A stretch of 64,000 nt of DNA, taken from positions 806,001 to 870,000 of the forward strand of contig NZ_CP133548.1 in the NCBI RefSeq assembly GCF_031198435.1, given 5' to 3'. Positions 24,255-53,880 of this stretch are shown here, piece after piece. Made by a program: the position numbers and the translations under genes. Numbering within the stretch: position 1 is the stretch's first letter; each line of letters starts with the position of its first letter. The notes beneath the pieces are model-generated. The model did no database searches. It saw only the letters and a program-made list of their open reading frames with translations, and was not told the DNA's origin. Source of the stretch: Pleionea litopenaei (GTDB lineage: Bacteria > Pseudomonadota > Gammaproteobacteria > Enterobacterales > Kangiellaceae).

Positions 24255-25337
24255 GTGACCACGGTTGCAAAGTTTGACATAAAGTACATTCAATATATCG
24301 ATAAAGATGGCAAACCAACAACGAAAAAGTTGCCAAAGTTAGCCAAAGATATCGACACACTAAAAACACTCTATCGGTCAATGAACCGTATTCGAACCCT
24401 AGATACCAAAGCCTACGCGCTACAGCGTACCGGAAAAATGGGTACCTACCCTGCGGCGTTGGGTCAAGAAGCTATCGGTGTCGGATTTGGCTCAGCCTTG
24501 AATAAAGAAGACGTTCTCGTGCCTTATTATCGTGGACAAGCCGCGATGATCGAACACGGCGTGCGTATGGAGGAAGTACTGCTTTATTGGGGCGGTGATG
24601 AGCGTGGCTCGGATTATCAAAACGCTCGAGAAGACTTCCCCATTGCAGTACCGATTGCGACCCAGCTGTTGCATGCAGCTGGTGTTGCTAAAGCGATGCA
24701 ACTTAAAGGTGAAAAGCGCTGCGTTGCAACTGAGATAGGTGAAGGCGGTACGTCAGAGGGTGACTTCTACGAAGCCATCAACGTCGCTGGCATTTGGAAC
24801 CTAGGTGTTGTTTTCTTCATCAATAATAACCAATGGGCCATTTCCGTTCCTTCAGAAATCCAAACGGCTTGCGAAACCTATGCGCAAAAAGCCATCGCTG
24901 CCGGTGTTGAATGCGTTCAGGTCGACGGTAACGACATCATTGCCGTTCGCGACGCGGCTGAACAAGCGTACAAAAAAGCCCGTGAAGGTAAAGGCCCAAC
25001 ACTGATCGAATGTATATCACTTCGACTCTGTGACCACACCACCGCTGACGATGCGCGACGCTACCGACCAGAGGGCGAACTCGACGAAGGTTGGAAAGCT
25101 GAGCCTATTTTGCGCTTACGCAAATACTTAGAATCTTTGGATGCTTGGTCTGAAGACGAAGAAAAAGCCATGCAAGAAGAGTTAGCAAAGGAAGTTCAAG
25201 AAGCGGTCGACAACTATGTCAACACGCCTGTCGACAAGCCTGAAGCTATGTTTGATTACTTGTACGAAGAATTACCGGCTCGAACACTCGAGCAACGCGA
25301 GTACGCGATTCAAGCGGCCGCGAAGAAAGGAGCCTAA
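24255..25337 (+). CDS. 2-oxoacid dehydrogenase E1 alpha subunit (branched-chain or pyruvate)
   Basis: The 360-residue thiamine-diphosphate-binding alpha subunit of a heterotetrameric E1, which decarboxylates a 2-oxoacid. The TPP motif reads GEGGTSEGDFYEAIN with a closing INNNQWA; the usual first Asp of GDG is Glu here. MGTYPAALGQEAIGVGFG and the phosphorylation-loop region RLCDHTTADDARRYR are family features. The start is GTG with a near-perfect AAAGGAGGT six bases before it. It overlaps E1beta by one base (TAATG). Leucine dehydrogenase elsewhere in the window favours branched-chain 2-oxoacids, but a pyruvate dehydrogenase role cannot be ruled out. Confidence 0.88.
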   Translation: MTTVAKFDIKYIQYIDKDGKPTTKKLPKLAKDIDTLKTLYRSMNRIRTLDTKAYALQRTGKMGTYPAALGQEAIGVGFGSALNKEDVLVPYYRGQAAMIEHGVRMEEVLLYWGGDERGSDYQNAREDFPIAVPIATQLLHAAGVAKAMQLKGEKRCVATEIGEGGTSEGDFYEAINVAGIWNLGVVFFINNNQWAISVPSEIQTACETYAQKAIAAGVECVQVDGNDIIAVRDAAEQAYKKAREGKGPTLIECISLRLCDHTTADDARRYRPEGELDEGWKAEPILRLRKYLESLDAWSEDEEKAMQEELAKEVQEAVDNYVNTPVDKPEAMFDYLYEELPARTLEQREYAIQAAAKKGA

Positions 25338-26320
25338 TGATGCCTGCAATTACTCTAATTGAAGCCGTTAATATGGCAATGGCCCATGAAATGGGTGTCG
25401 ACAATAGCGTTGTCGCTTTAGGTGAAGATGTTGGAACCAATGGTGGTGTTTTTAGAGCAACCGATGGTCTGCAGAAAAAATTTGGTAAAGACCGAGTTAT
25501 CGATACGCCTCTTGCAGAATCTATGATTGCAGGTGTTTCAGTCGGAATGGCGGCACAAGGCATCAAGCCAATTGCAGAAATTCAATTTATGGGATTTATT
25601 TTTCCTGCTGTCGACCAAATTATCTGTCACATGGCGAGAATGCGTCATCGCACACGCGGTCGAATAACTTTACCACTGGTACTTCGCGCACCTTTCGGCG
25701 GAGGCATTCATGCCCCAGAGCATCATTCAGAAAGCACTGAAGCAATCTTTGCTCATATTCCTGGCCTCAAAGTCGTGATTCCATCGAACCCTTCACGCGC
25801 GTACGGCTTAATGTTAGCGGCCATTCGCGACCCAGACCCGGTCATTTTCTTGGAGCCAAAACGTGTTTACCGGATTGTGAAACATGAAGTCGAAGACAAT
25901 GGTGAAGACTACCCACTCGGCTGCTGTTTTGTGGATCGGGAAGGAACTGACATTACTTTAATCAGCTGGGGTGCCATGCTGCACGAAACGAATATGGCAG
26001 CAGATAAGTTAGCGGCTGAAGGTATCAGTTGCGAAGTTATCGATGTAGCGACTGTGAGCCCTCTCGATATTGAAACCATTTTAGAGTCAGTAGCGAAAAC
26101 TGGCCGTGCCGTGATTGTTCAAGAAGCCCCAAAAGCTGGCAGTCTTGGTTCGGAAATCGCTGCAGAAATTGCCGAAAAAGGGATATTTAATCTACTTGCC
26201 CCTATCGGTCGAGTATCGGGTTATGACACCATCATGCCCTACTATCGCTTAGAAAAGCAGTACATGCCTACAGTTGATCGTATTCTGGAAGAAGTAAGAA
26301 AAACGGTGGAGTACTCATGA
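25337..26320 (+). CDS. 2-oxoacid dehydrogenase E1 beta subunit
   Basis: A 327-residue transketolase-like beta subunit that pairs with the gene before it. Family segments are VALGEDVGTNGGVFRATDGL, RVIDTPLAESMIAGVSVGMA and APFGGGIHAPEHHSESTEAIF, the last carrying the active-site histidine region, with GRAVIVQEAPKAGSLGSEIA near the C-terminus. It begins with ATGATG; either ATG may be used. Its stop overlaps the E2 start by four bases (ATGA), so the three genes are translationally coupled. Confidence 0.9.
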   Translation: MMPAITLIEAVNMAMAHEMGVDNSVVALGEDVGTNGGVFRATDGLQKKFGKDRVIDTPLAESMIAGVSVGMAAQGIKPIAEIQFMGFIFPAVDQIICHMARMRHRTRGRITLPLVLRAPFGGGIHAPEHHSESTEAIFAHIPGLKVVIPSNPSRAYGLMLAAIRDPDPVIFLEPKRVYRIVKHEVEDNGEDYPLGCCFVDREGTDITLISWGAMLHETNMAADKLAAEGISCEVIDVATVSPLDIETILESVAKTGRAVIVQEAPKAGSLGSEIAAEIAEKGIFNLLAPIGRVSGYDTIMPYYRLEKQYMPTVDRILEEVRKTVEYS

Positions 26321-28065
26321 AGACTTTTAATTTGCCCGATTTAGGTGAGGGCTTGCCCGATGCCGAGATCGTACGATGGTTAGTCAAAGAAGGCGATACA
26401 GTTGCCGTCGATCAACCAATGGTCGAAATGGAAACTGCAAAAGCCGTGGTAGAGGTTCCCTCGCCTTATGCTGGCACCATAACCAAACTTAACGGACAAG
26501 CTGGCGACGTCATTCAAGTCGGAGCATCATTAGTTGAGTTTGACGGAGATTCGAGTTCAAGCGCGAGCCAACAAGAAGCGCAAGCTACTCCGCCTGCAAC
26601 CGAGAATGCAACCACTTCGGCCGCCCCTGCTAGCACTTCTCAAGGTGCTTCAGAAGTCTTTAAACTGCCTGACCTCGGCGAAGGCTTACCCGACGCAGAA
26701 GTTGTCAGATGGTTAGTATCTGAAGGCGATTCTGTCACCGTAGATCAGCCTATGGTCGAGATGGAAACAGCGAAAGCGGTTGTTGAAGTCCCCTCTCCTG
26801 TCGCCGGAACCATTAGCAAACTGCACGGGCAAGCAGGAGATGTGATTCAAGTAGGTGCGCCGTTAGTAACCTTTGGCGGCGGCTCAGCTTCAACCACTCA
26901 AGCGGCCCCATCAGAAGCACCTGCAGAGGAAGCTTCTAGCGATGCGGGAACCGTCGTTGGCGCTGTTGAAGTTGGCAACACCATTGTTGCAGAGTCAGCA
27001 AACTCAGTCGTTAAAGCCTTAGCTCGCAAACTCAAGGTTGATTTAACCCAAGTTAAAGGTACTGGCACCGATGGCGCCATTACACAAGCGGATGTTAAGG
27101 CCGCGGCTAAATCTGGCAACGCGGTCGCATCAAGTGCTTCTGCAGCGGCTGTAGTAGCCGGTACCGATACCGCTAACCCACTATCCTACAAAGCGTCTCC
27201 TGCGGTAAGAGCGTTAGCGCGACGTCTGGGTGTCGATCTGGGTCAATGTCAAGCATCAGGACGCAAAGGCAGCATCACTCGGAGCGACGTAGAAAATGCG
27301 GCCCAAGGCAGGTCAACGGCCTCAGCGAATGTTGCATCGTCGCAAGCCAGACCGTCGACCTCATCATCGTCTACCTCATCACCGTCGACCTCATCTGGCG
27401 GCAACCGACTGCCAAGCGTGTCGATCACTCGTGAACCACAAACCGTTCGTGGTGTACGAAGAGCAATGGCACAAGGTATGGCTCACTCGCATGCGACGGT
27501 AGTGCCAACGACATTAGTTGAAGATGTGAATATCAGCGCATGGCCAAAAGGCACTGACTCATTGGCTCGCTACATTCGAGCTTTGTGTTACGCATCGAGA
27601 ATCGAGCCGGCACTAAATGCTTGGTTCGATGGCGAAAACATGGAGCGACTGTTGCATCCAAATGTGAACGTAGGTATTGCGGTTGATACCGCAGACGGTT
27701 TATATGTGCCTGTTGTACATAATGCCGATCAAATGTCGATGACCGAATCACGCGCTCAAGTTCAAGTACTCAGAGACAAGATTGCGAATAAGGGAATAAA
27801 GCCGGCGGATCTCGCTGATGCCACCATTACTTTATCTAACTTTGGCTCTATTGCTGGTCGATATGGCACACCGGTGGTTTCACCACCACAAGTCGCCATT
27901 CTCGGAACTGGACGCTTCCGTAACGAACTACAACTAACCGATAAAGGCATTGTTAATCAGAAGATGTTGCCACTGTCACTCACCTTCGATCACAGAGCGT
28001 GTACTGGTGGTGAAGCAGCTAGATTCCTTGCCGCAATAATGGAAGATCTAAGCAAAGCGCAATAA
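26317..28065 (+). CDS. dihydrolipoamide acyltransferase E2 with two lipoyl and two subunit-binding domains
   Basis: The 582-residue E2 core of the complex; it moves acyl groups from E1 to CoA. Domains in order: lipoyl 1 (1-80, lipoyl-lysine K42 in VEMETAKAVVEV), a Ser/Thr/Ala linker, lipoyl 2 (115-190, K153), and two peripheral-subunit-binding domains (about 229-265, VVKALARKLKVDLTQVKGTG; and 293-328, SPAVRALARRLGVDLGQC). A Ser-rich linker and the catalytic domain (about 371-582) follow. The catalytic motif DHRxxDG reads DHRACTG (558-564): His559 is kept but the Asp is Thr563. Most E2s have one binding domain. No E3 gene follows. Substrate uncertain, as for E1. Confidence 0.9.
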   Translation: MKTFNLPDLGEGLPDAEIVRWLVKEGDTVAVDQPMVEMETAKAVVEVPSPYAGTITKLNGQAGDVIQVGASLVEFDGDSSSSASQQEAQATPPATENATTSAAPASTSQGASEVFKLPDLGEGLPDAEVVRWLVSEGDSVTVDQPMVEMETAKAVVEVPSPVAGTISKLHGQAGDVIQVGAPLVTFGGGSASTTQAAPSEAPAEEASSDAGTVVGAVEVGNTIVAESANSVVKALARKLKVDLTQVKGTGTDGAITQADVKAAAKSGNAVASSASAAAVVAGTDTANPLSYKASPAVRALARRLGVDLGQCQASGRKGSITRSDVENAAQGRSTASANVASSQARPSTSSSSTSSPSTSSGGNRLPSVSITREPQTVRGVRRAMAQGMAHSHATVVPTTLVEDVNISAWPKGTDSLARYIRALCYASRIEPALNAWFDGENMERLLHPNVNVGIAVDTADGLYVPVVHNADQMSMTESRAQVQVLRDKIANKGIKPADLADATITLSNFGSIAGRYGTPVVSPPQVAILGTGRFRNELQLTDKGIVNQKMLPLSLTFDHRACTGGEAARFLAAIMEDLSKAQ

Positions 28066-28130: not shown

Positions 28131-28174
28131 ATTGGTAGACTACTCTCTTAATATTCGATCAATTGGGCCATTAC

Positions 28175-28897
28175 ATGGATAGCAAAGAGACATCGCAAAA
28201 ACAAAATGAACCACGGAATGATGCTCATTTAACCGAACGAATTTTTGGCGACGGACCTCGCCAACTACTAACCCACCCAGGCTTAATTTTGAGTTCAACC
28301 TATTTCATTTGGGCCTTGATTGGTTTGACCTATTTGGTGATGTATTACAGCCACTTTAATATCTCTATCTTAAAGTATTTAGAGGTGACCGATATATTAA
28401 TTGCAGGGTTACAAGAACCCAAAGTGTCTATCGCCGTGTTTGGCGCATTAGCCGTCATTATAGCCATCGTAAAGGCCGCAATGTGGTCTACCCGTTACCA
28501 ACAGGAAAAAGGTAAAAACTTCTCGCCTTGGATGCGAGTAGTCTTTTTCGTCTTTTTTTATGTTCCTAAAAATCGAACAGCATTGCGGTTAAGTCTTTTA
28601 GTGTCATTGATTTTGTACTTTGCCGTTTTTCTCGAGCTACTGCTCGCCGATGAAGTAAACCAAATTAAAAGCTCTGCGAATAACTTTGTGCAAGTGAAGC
28701 AAGAGCAACAATGGATTCGCGGTCAATGTGAAGCATCACAGATTGCTAGTTGGAAGCTACTCGGCACAACCACTAAATTTGTATTTCTCTACAATGTCGA
28801 TTGTGACTCAACGCAAGTGCTCCCGATAGAAAGTATTCAAAGTATTGCGAACGTTCCAAATACCAATGAGAACTTAACTGAGGAGACGCAGCAGTGA
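28175..28897 (+). CDS. hypothetical membrane protein
   Basis: A 240-residue protein I do not recognise. After a charged 40-residue N-terminus there are three membrane helices (about 43-70, 95-113 and 145-168), then a 70-residue soluble tail with two cysteines (GQCEASQIASW and VDCDSTQV), probably outside the membrane. The frame is open to a TTG at 28163, but the ATG at 28175 is the more likely start. Its stop overlaps the GTG start of the amidase gene by four bases (GTGA), so the two are translationally coupled and may work together. Confidence 0.65.
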   Translation: MDSKETSQKQNEPRNDAHLTERIFGDGPRQLLTHPGLILSSTYFIWALIGLTYLVMYYSHFNISILKYLEVTDILIAGLQEPKVSIAVFGALAVIIAIVKAAMWSTRYQQEKGKNFSPWMRVVFFVFFYVPKNRTALRLSLLVSLILYFAVFLELLLADEVNQIKSSANNFVQVKQEQQWIRGQCEASQIASWKLLGTTTKFVFLYNVDCDSTQVLPIESIQSIANVPNTNENLTEETQQ

Positions 28898-30366
28898 ATT
28901 TACAGGAGTATATGCAACTCGATGGTATTGGTTTAGCTTCGCTGGTACAGGCCAAAGACGTGAGCCCAACAGAACTCCTAACCTGCGCACTGCAGAGACT
29001 GGAGCAAGTTAATCCATCGTTAAATGCAGTCATTCATACCTTTGCAGAAAAAGCGATGTCAGCGGCGAATCAGCTTCCTTCGTCACAACCATTCTCTGGC
29101 GTTCCATTTCTATTGAAAGATCTGCAATGTGCTTTGGCTGGCGAGCCAATGAGTATGGGCAGTCGTGGCATACGGTGGACGCCAGAAACCGACTCCACCC
29201 TCGCCAGCCGCTACCGTTCATCTGGACTAAATATCTTCGGCAAGACCAACACCCCAGAGTATGGGCTTATCATCACAACGGAGCCTAAAGCATTTGGGCC
29301 TACTCATAATCCTCACCGGCAAGGTTACAGCGCTGGAGGCTCTTCTGGTGGCAGTGCTGCCGCCGTTGTTTCTGGAATCGTTCCCATGGCCCACGGCGGA
29401 GATGGTGGAGGTTCTATTCGCTTCCCTGCGGCCTGGTGTGGTGCATTTGGATTGAAGCCGAGCCGTAATCGTACGCCAATGGGGCCAAAGATTGGCGAAG
29501 ATTGGGCTGGCGCGGTCGTCGAGCATGCAATAACGAGAAGCGTTCGTGATAGCGCAGCATTACTTGATGCAACTTTAGGTGAAGATGTAGCCAGTCCGTT
29601 TTCTATACCAAAGCCAGCTAAGCCCTACGTAGAAATGTTAAAAGATTCGACAATAAAACCGATGAAAATCATCGCCTCTGCTCAACCTCATATTCGAACA
29701 CAAGTCGATCCAGAAGTATCGCAAGCAGTTATTGATACGGCGACAAAATTAGAAAACTTAGGGCACACGGTTGAATGGCGAGACCCTGAATTTAATCATG
29801 ATGACCTGTGGAGCAGTTTCTTTATCGTCGTAGCAGCCCACGTTGCCGCGGTACAAAAGGAAATCAAACAAACATTTGGCAGAAAAGCCGCTAGATTGCT
29901 AGAGCCTCAAACTAAAAACTTAGCCATGATTGGTCGCTCATTTTCAGCGGGCGACTTAGTTATGGCTCTTAATCAATGGCAAAACATTCGCGCGCATACA
30001 CATGGTTACATGCTTGGTTACGATGCTTATTTATGCCCAACCGTTCCAACTACAGCGGTAAAACACCGAGCGTTATTAAAATCGCCGGCCGAAGAGTGGC
30101 TGCTTGAAATGAGCAGCCATTTTAATATGGGGAAGTTATCTTTTCGATTAGGGCTTGCTGAACAATTCGCCATGCCGGTATTGGAGAAAATGGCGTTTAC
30201 TATTCTTGGTAACATTACTGGGCTTCCTGCAGCAAGCTTACCATTGGCAAAACACAGCAATGGACTACCAATTGGTGTTCAAATGTATGGTCAGTTCGCC
30301 GAGGAAGAGACGTTGTTTCAATTAGCCAAGCAACTGGAGCCAGATTTTATAGGTTGCAAACTTTAA
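28894..30366 (+). CDS. amidase (amidase signature family)
   Basis: A 490-residue amidase-signature hydrolase with an intact Ser-cisSer-Lys triad: Lys in PFLLKDLQ, the cis-serine in YSAGGSSGGSAAAVVSG, and the nucleophile in GGDGGGSIRFPA. The overall pattern resembles 6-aminohexanoate cyclic-dimer hydrolase and related amidases rather than GatA. No GatB/C partner is near. It hydrolyses an amide of unknown identity in the cytosol. The GTG start overlaps the preceding stop by four bases. Confidence 0.88.
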   Translation: MNLQEYMQLDGIGLASLVQAKDVSPTELLTCALQRLEQVNPSLNAVIHTFAEKAMSAANQLPSSQPFSGVPFLLKDLQCALAGEPMSMGSRGIRWTPETDSTLASRYRSSGLNIFGKTNTPEYGLIITTEPKAFGPTHNPHRQGYSAGGSSGGSAAAVVSGIVPMAHGGDGGGSIRFPAAWCGAFGLKPSRNRTPMGPKIGEDWAGAVVEHAITRSVRDSAALLDATLGEDVASPFSIPKPAKPYVEMLKDSTIKPMKIIASAQPHIRTQVDPEVSQAVIDTATKLENLGHTVEWRDPEFNHDDLWSSFFIVVAAHVAAVQKEIKQTFGRKAARLLEPQTKNLAMIGRSFSAGDLVMALNQWQNIRAHTHGYMLGYDAYLCPTVPTTAVKHRALLKSPAEEWLLEMSSHFNMGKLSFRLGLAEQFAMPVLEKMAFTILGNITGLPAASLPLAKHSNGLPIGVQMYGQFAEEETLFQLAKQLEPDFIGCKL

Positions 30367-52845: not shown

Positions 52846-53880
52846 ATGGCAGTATTTAATCTGCGAGCATACGATGAACACGAGCAAGTAGTGTTTTGTA
52901 GTGACAGTGAATCAGGCTTGAAAGCAATTATTGCTATTCATAGTACTGCTCTTGGTCCTGCAACCGGTGGATGTCGTATGTGGGAATACAATTCTGACGA
53001 AGGTGCACTTATCGATGCATTACGTCTATCACGTGGTATGACTTATAAGAATGCCATGGCTGGACTCAACATGGGTGGCGGAAAGTCAGTTATCATTGGT
53101 AACCCACGCACCCAGAAGTCAGAAGAGTTATTCCGTGCATTCGGTCGTTTTGTAGATAACTTAAAAGGCCGATACGTGACCGCTGAAGACGTAGGAATTA
53201 ACCCTGACGATATGGCATTAGTGCACAAAGAAACCAATCACGTACTTGGTTTAGAAGGCAAAAGCGGTGACCCATCTCCAGTAACTGCGTATGGTGTCTA
53301 CATGGGCATGAAAGCAGCGGTAAAACACCGCTTAGGACGCGATAGCTTAGATGGCATTAAAGTCGCTGTTCAAGGACTGGGGCATGTTGGTCAATATCTT
53401 TGCGACCACTTAGCAAAAGAAGGCGCGCAACTGTTTGTAACCGATATCAACAAAGAATCGATCGATAAAATCGTTAGCAGCTGTGGTGCTACCGCTATCG
53501 ATAAAGATGAGATTTATCAACAAGACGTTGATGTTTATGCGCCTTGTGCTCTTGGTGCAACACTAAACGATGTGACGATTCCAAAGTTAAAAGCGTCAGT
53601 CATCGCAGGTGCTGCAAATAACCAACTAGCAGAAGATCGTCATGGCGATGAATTGAAAAAGCGTGGTATCTTGTACACTCCTGATTACATCATCAACGCT
53701 GGCGGAATTATTAACGTTTCGTTTGAAGAAAACTACAACCGAGAAGTTGCTCTTCGTAAAGTTGATGAAATTTATCAAACGTTGGAAGAAGTATTTGCAA
53801 CCGCCGATAAAGAAAATAAAACAACGAATGTTGTCGCAGATGAATTAGCACGTAAGCGTGTGGCAGCTGCAAAGCAATAG
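52846..53880 (+). CDS. ldh: leucine dehydrogenase
   Basis: A 344-residue NAD-dependent dehydrogenase of the Glu/Leu/Phe/Val family, which deaminates leucine, valine and isoleucine to 2-oxoacids. The catalytic lysines are Lys68 (GMTYKNAM) and Lys80 (LNMGGGKSVIIG), as in Bacillus leucine dehydrogenase. The Rossmann motif is VAVQGLGHVGQYLCDHL, and YIINAGGIINVSFE is close to the substrate. It has a strong ribosome site (TAGGAGATAATT). Its 2-oxoacid products could feed the dehydrogenase complex at 24-28 kb. A terminator follows. Confidence 0.92.
   Translation: MAVFNLRAYDEHEQVVFCSDSESGLKAIIAIHSTALGPATGGCRMWEYNSDEGALIDALRLSRGMTYKNAMAGLNMGGGKSVIIGNPRTQKSEELFRAFGRFVDNLKGRYVTAEDVGINPDDMALVHKETNHVLGLEGKSGDPSPVTAYGVYMGMKAAVKHRLGRDSLDGIKVAVQGLGHVGQYLCDHLAKEGAQLFVTDINKESIDKIVSSCGATAIDKDEIYQQDVDVYAPCALGATLNDVTIPKLKASVIAGAANNQLAEDRHGDELKKRGILYTPDYIINAGGIINVSFEENYNREVALRKVDEIYQTLEEVFATADKENKTTNVVADELARKRVAAAKQ

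Follow-up and report, generated by a model that had tools for sequence, protein, structure and literature searches.

The window analysed here, a stretch of 64,000 nucleotides (C1:806001-870000) from the 4.42-Mb genome of Pleionea litopenaei, carries an operon encoding the E1 alpha, E1 beta, and E2 components of a 2-oxoacid dehydrogenase complex, with both E1 genes upstream of the E2 gene and the gene ends overlapping. Directly 3' of the E2 gene lies an open reading frame with a TTG start (28163-28897) that contains hydrophobic stretches and returned no match in Pfam or NCBIfam, followed by an amidase gene (28894-30366). The features of the operon are as follows:

24255..25337, + strand: E1 alpha gene, GTG start (PF00676; TIGR03181 above cut-off)
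25337..26320, + strand: E1 beta gene (PF02779, PF02780)
26317..28065, + strand: E2 acyltransferase gene, 582 aa (open reading frame with Pfam and NCBIfam matches; AlphaFold)
26323..26541, + strand: lipoyl domain 1, aa 3-75, expected lipoyl-Lys42 (Pfam Biotin_lipoyl; beta-sandwich in the model)
26656..26874, + strand: lipoyl domain 2, aa 114-186, expected lipoyl-Lys153, invariant in alignment A1 (Pfam; model)
26941..26973, + strand: linker motif DAGTVVGAVEV, aa 209-219, recognised by subfamily conservation
27001..27111, + strand: PSBD1, aa 229-265 (Pfam and PDB matches; helices 228-238 and 257-265; pLDDT about 74-92)
27190..27300, + strand: PSBD2, aa 292-328 (Pfam and PDB matches; helices 295-304 and 322-339; pLDDT about 91-96)
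27439..28053, + strand: catalytic domain, aa 375-579 (PF00198, alignment, fold matches)
27988..28008, + strand: DHRACTG motif, aa 558-564 (His559 at 27991-27993, Thr563 at 28003-28005)

The sequence-only reading had assigned 27000-28065 to an E2 acyltransferase; this span belongs to the same gene but takes in only its C-terminal 60% or so, the start lying at 26317. Pfam placed two lipoyl domains, two E1/E3-binding domains (PSBDs), and a catalytic domain in that order along the chain: Biotin_lipoyl matched twice, with ETAKA motifs present, E3_binding matched in two stretches (2.8e-23 per protein, cut-off passed), and 2-oxoacid_dh (PF00198) covered aa 375-579 (8.8e-53). Both PSBDs also exceeded the curated PF02817 cut-off in a whole-genome search (53.6 and 39.5 bits), which recovered four PSBDs above it in this genome, one each in AceF and SucB and two in the E2 gene. 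Searched alone, PSBD1 matched PSBDs of solved structure at residues 230-266 and PSBD2 at 292-330. An AlphaFold model built from a 50-row alignment (mean pLDDT 79.4) contains two lipoyl sandwiches, both PSBDs, and a catalytic domain that matches E2 cores in the PDB; its confidence is low in the linkers (79-109, 194-227, 268-289, and 339-364), and PSBD1 is modelled with somewhat less confidence than PSBD2. Two binding domains in one chain had been proposed from the letters alone, with structure prediction as the check, and Pfam, PDB matches, and the model now agree on both, close to the residues first given and each predicted to fold as a binding domain. A spurious match for one of them is ruled out by the same agreement.

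Three E2s are encoded in this genome. The full E1_dh proteins are the operon's E1 alpha and a 946-aa SucA-type protein, in addition to two weak partial matches, and the operon has separate E1 alpha and E1 beta genes, as for a heterotetrameric E1 (E1 beta scored 305.9 bits against NCBIfam PRK09212, slightly below the cut-off of 321). A single lipoamide dehydrogenase exceeds the curated cut-off and adjoins aceF; since the operon has no E3 of its own, the complex presumably shares this Lpd. The operon's E2 has lipoyl domains with the expected lipoyl-Lys, the catalytic His, and a fold that matches E2 cores. It departs from the E2 pattern at the Asp of DHRxxDG, which is Thr563, and in its number of PSBDs, for which one per chain has been stated as the norm (PMC8421416). 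The two PSBDs are a variation in copy number, with no defining part lost.

The second PSBD was detected in all 36 orthologues, full or partial, recovered from 37 Kangiellaceae (f1) genomes, the remaining genome (G023) being 75% complete and yielding only a different E2. Two PSBDs were also present in G048 and G049, which belong to neighbouring families (f13 and f14), and in a named Kangiella record (L118, 71-72% identity), on which the naming of f1 as Kangiellaceae is based. The open frame of that single-cell Kangiella sequence (L118:4917-6467) holds only the second lipoyl domain, with a stop upstream. Exactly one PSBD was found in 29/29 further subfamily loci from a search across the class (L071-L099) and in 79 of the 80 loci from named genomes, the exception being Kangiella. 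A tree of 164 catalytic domains groups the tandem chains (n=37, after removing chains identical over the last 300 residues) in one clade with local support of 0.997. PF02817 gave 103 matches across 60 genomes of the phylum, paired within one open reading frame only here and in an E2 of G096 (L200:3810-5402), a 531-aa protein with one lipoyl domain and DHRVIDG whose operon is of acetoin/pyruvate type (E1 alpha, E1 beta, and a lipoamide-dehydrogenase-like open reading frame). The G096 protein resembles the window's E2 in its two PSBDs per chain but differs in its single lipoyl domain, its motif Asp, and its full-length catalytic domain, and it is an independent case, which rules out a tandem PSBD exclusive to the Kangiellaceae lineage. 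Tandem PSBDs appear from these surveys to be rare and to have arisen at least twice. A search of open-licence PMC papers for tandem or double PSBDs yielded nothing usable.

The two PSBDs of the Kangiellaceae chains are old copies that have diverged. PSBD1 and PSBD2 each form one clade (37/37; local support 0.977 and 0.727) in a tree that, with 37 residues, leaves the order of the two classes relative to single PSBDs unsettled. A recent duplication is ruled out by these separate clades, and also by the window's lipoyl domains, which share a codon at only 23/62 positions where they have the same residue. The pattern points to one old duplication of the PSBD in the ancestor of Kangiellaceae and the two neighbouring families. 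An addition that is genuine, conserved, and rare, the second PSBD gives a known kind of enzyme a new arrangement. Neither this domain nor Thr563 is there by chance, since both are conserved in every family orthologue examined.

For the 34 chains in which both lipoyl domains are present, identity between PSBD1 and PSBD2 of the same chain averages 46%, compared with 74% (PSBD1) and 75% (PSBD2) between chains. Across the 37 tandem chains, which are related, so that residues in common are not independent, 7/37 PSBD positions have no residue common to both classes. These differences include, for PSBD1 and PSBD2 respectively, Ala/Ser/Thr/Val versus Pro at position 4, Lys versus Gly/Asn/Asp at 14, Val/Ile versus Cys at 20, and Gln versus Lys/Arg at 31. 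Pro4 is absent from PSBD1 in 37/37 chains and present in PSBD2 in 37/37, as it is in 125/125 single-PSBD E2s. In these same chains, the two lipoyl domains have 82% identity within a chain and 83-85% between chains, and 0/73 of their positions lack a shared residue. That the lipoyl domains, which serve the same partners, have stayed alike while the docking domains differ is the main hint of a division of labour between the PSBDs.

These figures bear on how the two PSBDs might work. The sequence-only reading had suggested that the second copy could change how many E1 and E3 are held, and binding of more E1 or E3 per chain is plausible in view of the modelled folds. In its simplest form this would make the PSBDs equivalent docking sites whose duplication only doubles the E1 and E3 held per chain, a possibility that we consider with some reserve: both copies keep a basic cluster in helix 1 (K/R at 7, mostly R/K at 11, K or R at 12) and each matches PSBDs of known structure, but their 46% identity and fixed differences alongside lipoyl domains that have stayed alike, and the absence of Pro4 from PSBD1 alone, argue against equivalence. 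We find it quite unlikely that PSBD1 (or PSBD2) no longer docks a partner and acts instead as a spacer or in another contact; PSBD1 lacks the consensus at its N terminus, around Pro4 and Ala5, yet it is as conserved between chains as PSBD2, occurs in every orthologue of the clade, and is predicted to fold. The reading that we prefer, though tentatively, is a division of labour in which one PSBD may bind mainly E1 and the other mainly E3.

Most bacterial complexes have a single PSBD that E1 and E3 use by turns, and what determines their E1:E3 ratio is a question of long standing; in mammals, the PSBD of E2p holds E1. Mammalian E3BP tethers E3 (PMC6270654). When profiles of each class were compared with solved structures, the human E2p PSBD (6ct0) scored 33.5 bits with PSBD1 (rank 4/35) and 13.9 with PSBD2 (rank 31/35), and the human E3BP PSBD (2f5z) was, among the matches listed, absent with PSBD1 and at 14.2 bits with PSBD2. 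A control profile of single-PSBD relatives likewise favoured E2p (30.8 versus 12.1 for E3BP, with E2p at rank 26/51), so the change may be PSBD2 drifting away rather than PSBD1 approaching E1. PSBDs of other complexes score higher with one or the other copy: of the bacterial or archaeal ones, 4qoy and 1ebd do so with PSBD2 and 2eq8 and 1w4i with PSBD1, and 3rnm, a branched-chain E2, does so with PSBD2. The chain may conceivably have reinvented the mitochondrial division between E2 and E3BP within one polypeptide, PSBD1 being E1-specific and PSBD2 E3-specific with a borrowed Lpd, although we would put this forward with caution. If that split is real, the likeness to mitochondrial E2p and E3BP would be that PSBDs specialised for E1 and E3 sit in one core; the mitochondrial PSBDs are on two proteins, of which E3BP lacks acyltransferase activity (PMC6270654), whereas here they are on one active-looking chain. 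Split docks would let each chain hold both enzymes simultaneously and free of competition, and a diverged PSBD pair beside close one-PSBD relatives offers a direct test of whether docking can specialise within one chain.

The substitution at the motif has a wider distribution than the second PSBD. As the sequence-only reading had it, the motif reads DHRACTG, with His559 kept and Thr563 at the Asp position; Asp558 and Arg560 are also retained, and only the second Asp of DHRxxD is replaced. An E2 match was found at 1e-20 in 60/61 genomes of relatives, and Thr occupied the position in 29/29 of the orthologues from other genomes that were assigned loci in that search (28 DHRACTG, one DHRAATG). A search across the class at 1e-40 matched in 60/274 genomes, and its 29 new loci (L071-L099), picked by similarity and with the motif playing no part, had Thr in 29/29. 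The best 80 loci from a scan of named genomes, located by lipoyl-domain patterns and ordered by how similar they are to the query, and thus a sample of the subfamily rather than of all E2s, had 78 Thr and 2 Ser (L171, L175); they include Kangiella, Xanthomonadales, Legionella, Pseudomonas, Vibrio, Cupriavidus, and Marinobacter, among others. A strict DHRxxTG pattern in the DNA occurred in at least 25/398 genomes of the phylum, a lower bound, with 23 of its 25 loci being E2 genes (the other two are L049 and L061); as these loci (L046-L070) were chosen for Thr, they are excluded from the evidence for it. An overall tally of 160 Thr and 2 Ser comes from a set pre-filtered for T, S, or D at this position, so the claim leans on the unfiltered 29/29 and 78/80 counts instead. 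A local mutation or sequencing error at Thr563 is ruled out by those two counts. Thr563 appears from this sampling to be an old residue of the subfamily and the rule among its proteobacterial members, not a local anomaly.

The E2s of proteobacterial bkd-like operons with HRxxTG (Stenotrophomonas, Legionella, Pseudomonas, and Vibrio) share with the window's E2 the order lipoyl-TVVG-PSBD-catalytic, the short catalytic domain, and the motif Thr, with E1 alpha and E1 beta upstream in many loci, and they differ from it in having one PSBD (79/80) and usually one lipoyl domain. The linker motif occurs in most subfamily loci, with T212, V213, and G215 invariant in alignment A1. Aligned with the genome's own AceF and SucB, the window's E2 and four subfamily members have a catalytic domain shorter by 14-15 residues, with the gap after 'AWPKGTD' (aa ~414). 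AceF and SucB resemble the window's E2 in fold, catalytic His, and type of PSBD, but apart from the longer catalytic domain they have the motif Asp and one PSBD. The missing segment may alter how the core assembles, whether as trimer, 24-mer, or 60-mer. The short catalytic domain, the Thr, and the TVVG linker motif are common to the members, which makes this a subfamily with several joint marks. The suggestion of a lineage-specific subfamily thus held, with the amendment that its features mark different clades, HRxxTG being broad among proteobacteria and the tandem PSBD nested narrowly inside it. HRxxTG proved common, which is one half of what the sequence-only reading had named as a refutation (common and fully characterised), and open-licence PMC searches returned no paper characterising it; a search there for a description of DHRxxDG and for the bkd regulon gave nothing usable.

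What the Thr may mean for catalysis, including the changed stabilisation of the acyl-transfer intermediate that the sequence-only reading thought possible, can be gauged from characterised E2s. The Asp374-His375-Arg376-Leu-Ile-Asp379 motif of E. coli E2o, its residues taken from primers in PMC5986005, aligns with Asp558-His559-Arg560-Ala-Cys-Thr563. In E2o, the Asp379Ala variant retained about 9.5% of complex activity, and Asp374Ala and His375Ala retained 2.1% each (PMC5986005). The E2p of A. vinelandii has a non-Asp residue at the same position, Asn instead of Thr, which is expected to hydrogen-bond to the catalytic His upon ligand binding (PMC8421416). Together, the partial activity of Asp379Ala and the natural Asn suggest that this position modulates catalysis and that Asp is not obligatory, and the Thr of 29/29 and 78/80 relatives likewise suggests that the motif Asp is no strict criterion for an E2. 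As Thr is able to hydrogen-bond, we infer that the HRxxTG subfamily is catalytically active. Thr563 could instead mark a catalytically dead scaffold comparable to mitochondrial E3BP, for which the loss of activity in E. coli Asp379Ala (PMC5986005) might be cited; we consider this very improbable, as Asp558, His559, Arg560, and Asn508 are invariant in the alignments and Ser507 invariant or nearly so, the operon has no second E2, and A. vinelandii E2p naturally has Asn (PMC8421416). The retention of these catalytic residues makes an identity as E3BP/protein X unlikely. The HRxxTG subfamily is large and apparently functional, and it indicates that Thr can take the place of a motif Asp whose loss costs E. 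coli E2o about tenfold in activity.

Judging from gene context and family comparisons, this third 2-oxoacid dehydrogenase complex of the genome most likely acts on branched-chain 2-oxoacids. In 13/80 of the named loci the complex lies beside what we take to be a leucine-type (Glu/Leu/Phe/Val-type) dehydrogenase, and in 4/80 beside what we take to be a methylcrotonyl-CoA carboxylase beta-type carboxyltransferase together with HMG-CoA lyase; the dehydrogenase and carboxyltransferase are named from Pfam matches, and only HMG-CoA lyase passes its NCBIfam cut-off. The window contains a presumed counterpart 25 kb away, outside the operon:

52846..53880, + strand: leucine-type dehydrogenase, which may supply branched-chain 2-oxoacids

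This protein shares 50% identity with the dehydrogenase that adjoins the complex of L153. Farther along the contig, an operon at about 1110-1120 kb encodes acyl-CoA dehydrogenases, a carboxylase that shares 70% identity with its L145 counterpart, a biotin-carboxylase protein, and an HMG-CoA-lyase-like open reading frame. Only a minority of relatives have leucine-metabolism genes next to the complex, and in the window's genome these genes lie elsewhere. Iso-C15:0 makes up 57.6% of the lipids of K. koreensis (PMC3035244) and is a major acid in Aliikangiella (PMC11849500).

A second pyruvate dehydrogenase is the main alternative for the substrate. The E1 alpha passes TIGR03181 (pyruvate dehydrogenase; 440.8, above the cut-off of 411.35), but so does that of a Vibrio relative (L169, 442.9), so the model spans the subfamily and leaves the substrate undecided. 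The E2 falls below the NCBIfam equivalog cut-offs for the pyruvate dehydrogenase E2, AceF (PRK11854, 330.9 against 722; TIGR01348, 297.4 against 552.1). We regard this alternative as unlikely because aceF with lpd is already present in the genome, the context is one of leucine metabolism, the iso-fatty acids of the family need branched-chain precursors (PMC3035244), and the Xanthomonas cluster XCC0427-XCC0430, which may include an HRxxTG E2, has been called Bkd (PMC5733099). PMC9765439 describes P. aeruginosa PA3415-PA3417, beside ldh, only as pyruvate or branched-chain; PA3415 is presumably an HRxxTG E2, given the Pseudomonas loci of the named scan. A search of open-licence PMC papers for Kangiella together with a branched-chain complex yielded nothing usable.

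Taken as a whole, a third and likely branched-chain complex with an active Thr563 E2 and a division of labour between its PSBDs is our best explanation, to which we give about even chances on the strength of these comparisons. In this scheme, E1 (alpha2beta2) would decarboxylate the 2-oxoacid and acylate lipoyl-Lys42 or lipoyl-Lys153, and the swinging lipoyl domain would bring the acyl group so bound to the catalytic domain, a trimer. There His559, with Asp558 and with Thr563 at the usual Asp position, would promote acyl transfer onto CoA, the Thr retaining a hydrogen-bonding side chain and the enzyme remaining active. The lipoyl group would then be reoxidised by E3, the shared Lpd encoded next to aceF. 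The duplicated PSBDs, now with different conserved surfaces, would hold mainly E1 on one and mainly E3 on the other, so that a single chain could carry both together.

Several subfamily members show variations of their own. The motifs with Ser (HRAVSG in L171 and HRVVSG in L175) suggest that the hydroxyl is retained, and a subfamily E2 of genome G050 (L113:3985-5088) reads DHQACTGG, with Gln in place of the motif Arg. The E2 open frames of L093, L120, and L192 are 695, 982, and 857 residues long and extend far 5' of the first lipoyl domain, which may reflect an E1 beta-E2 fusion or a mere open frame.
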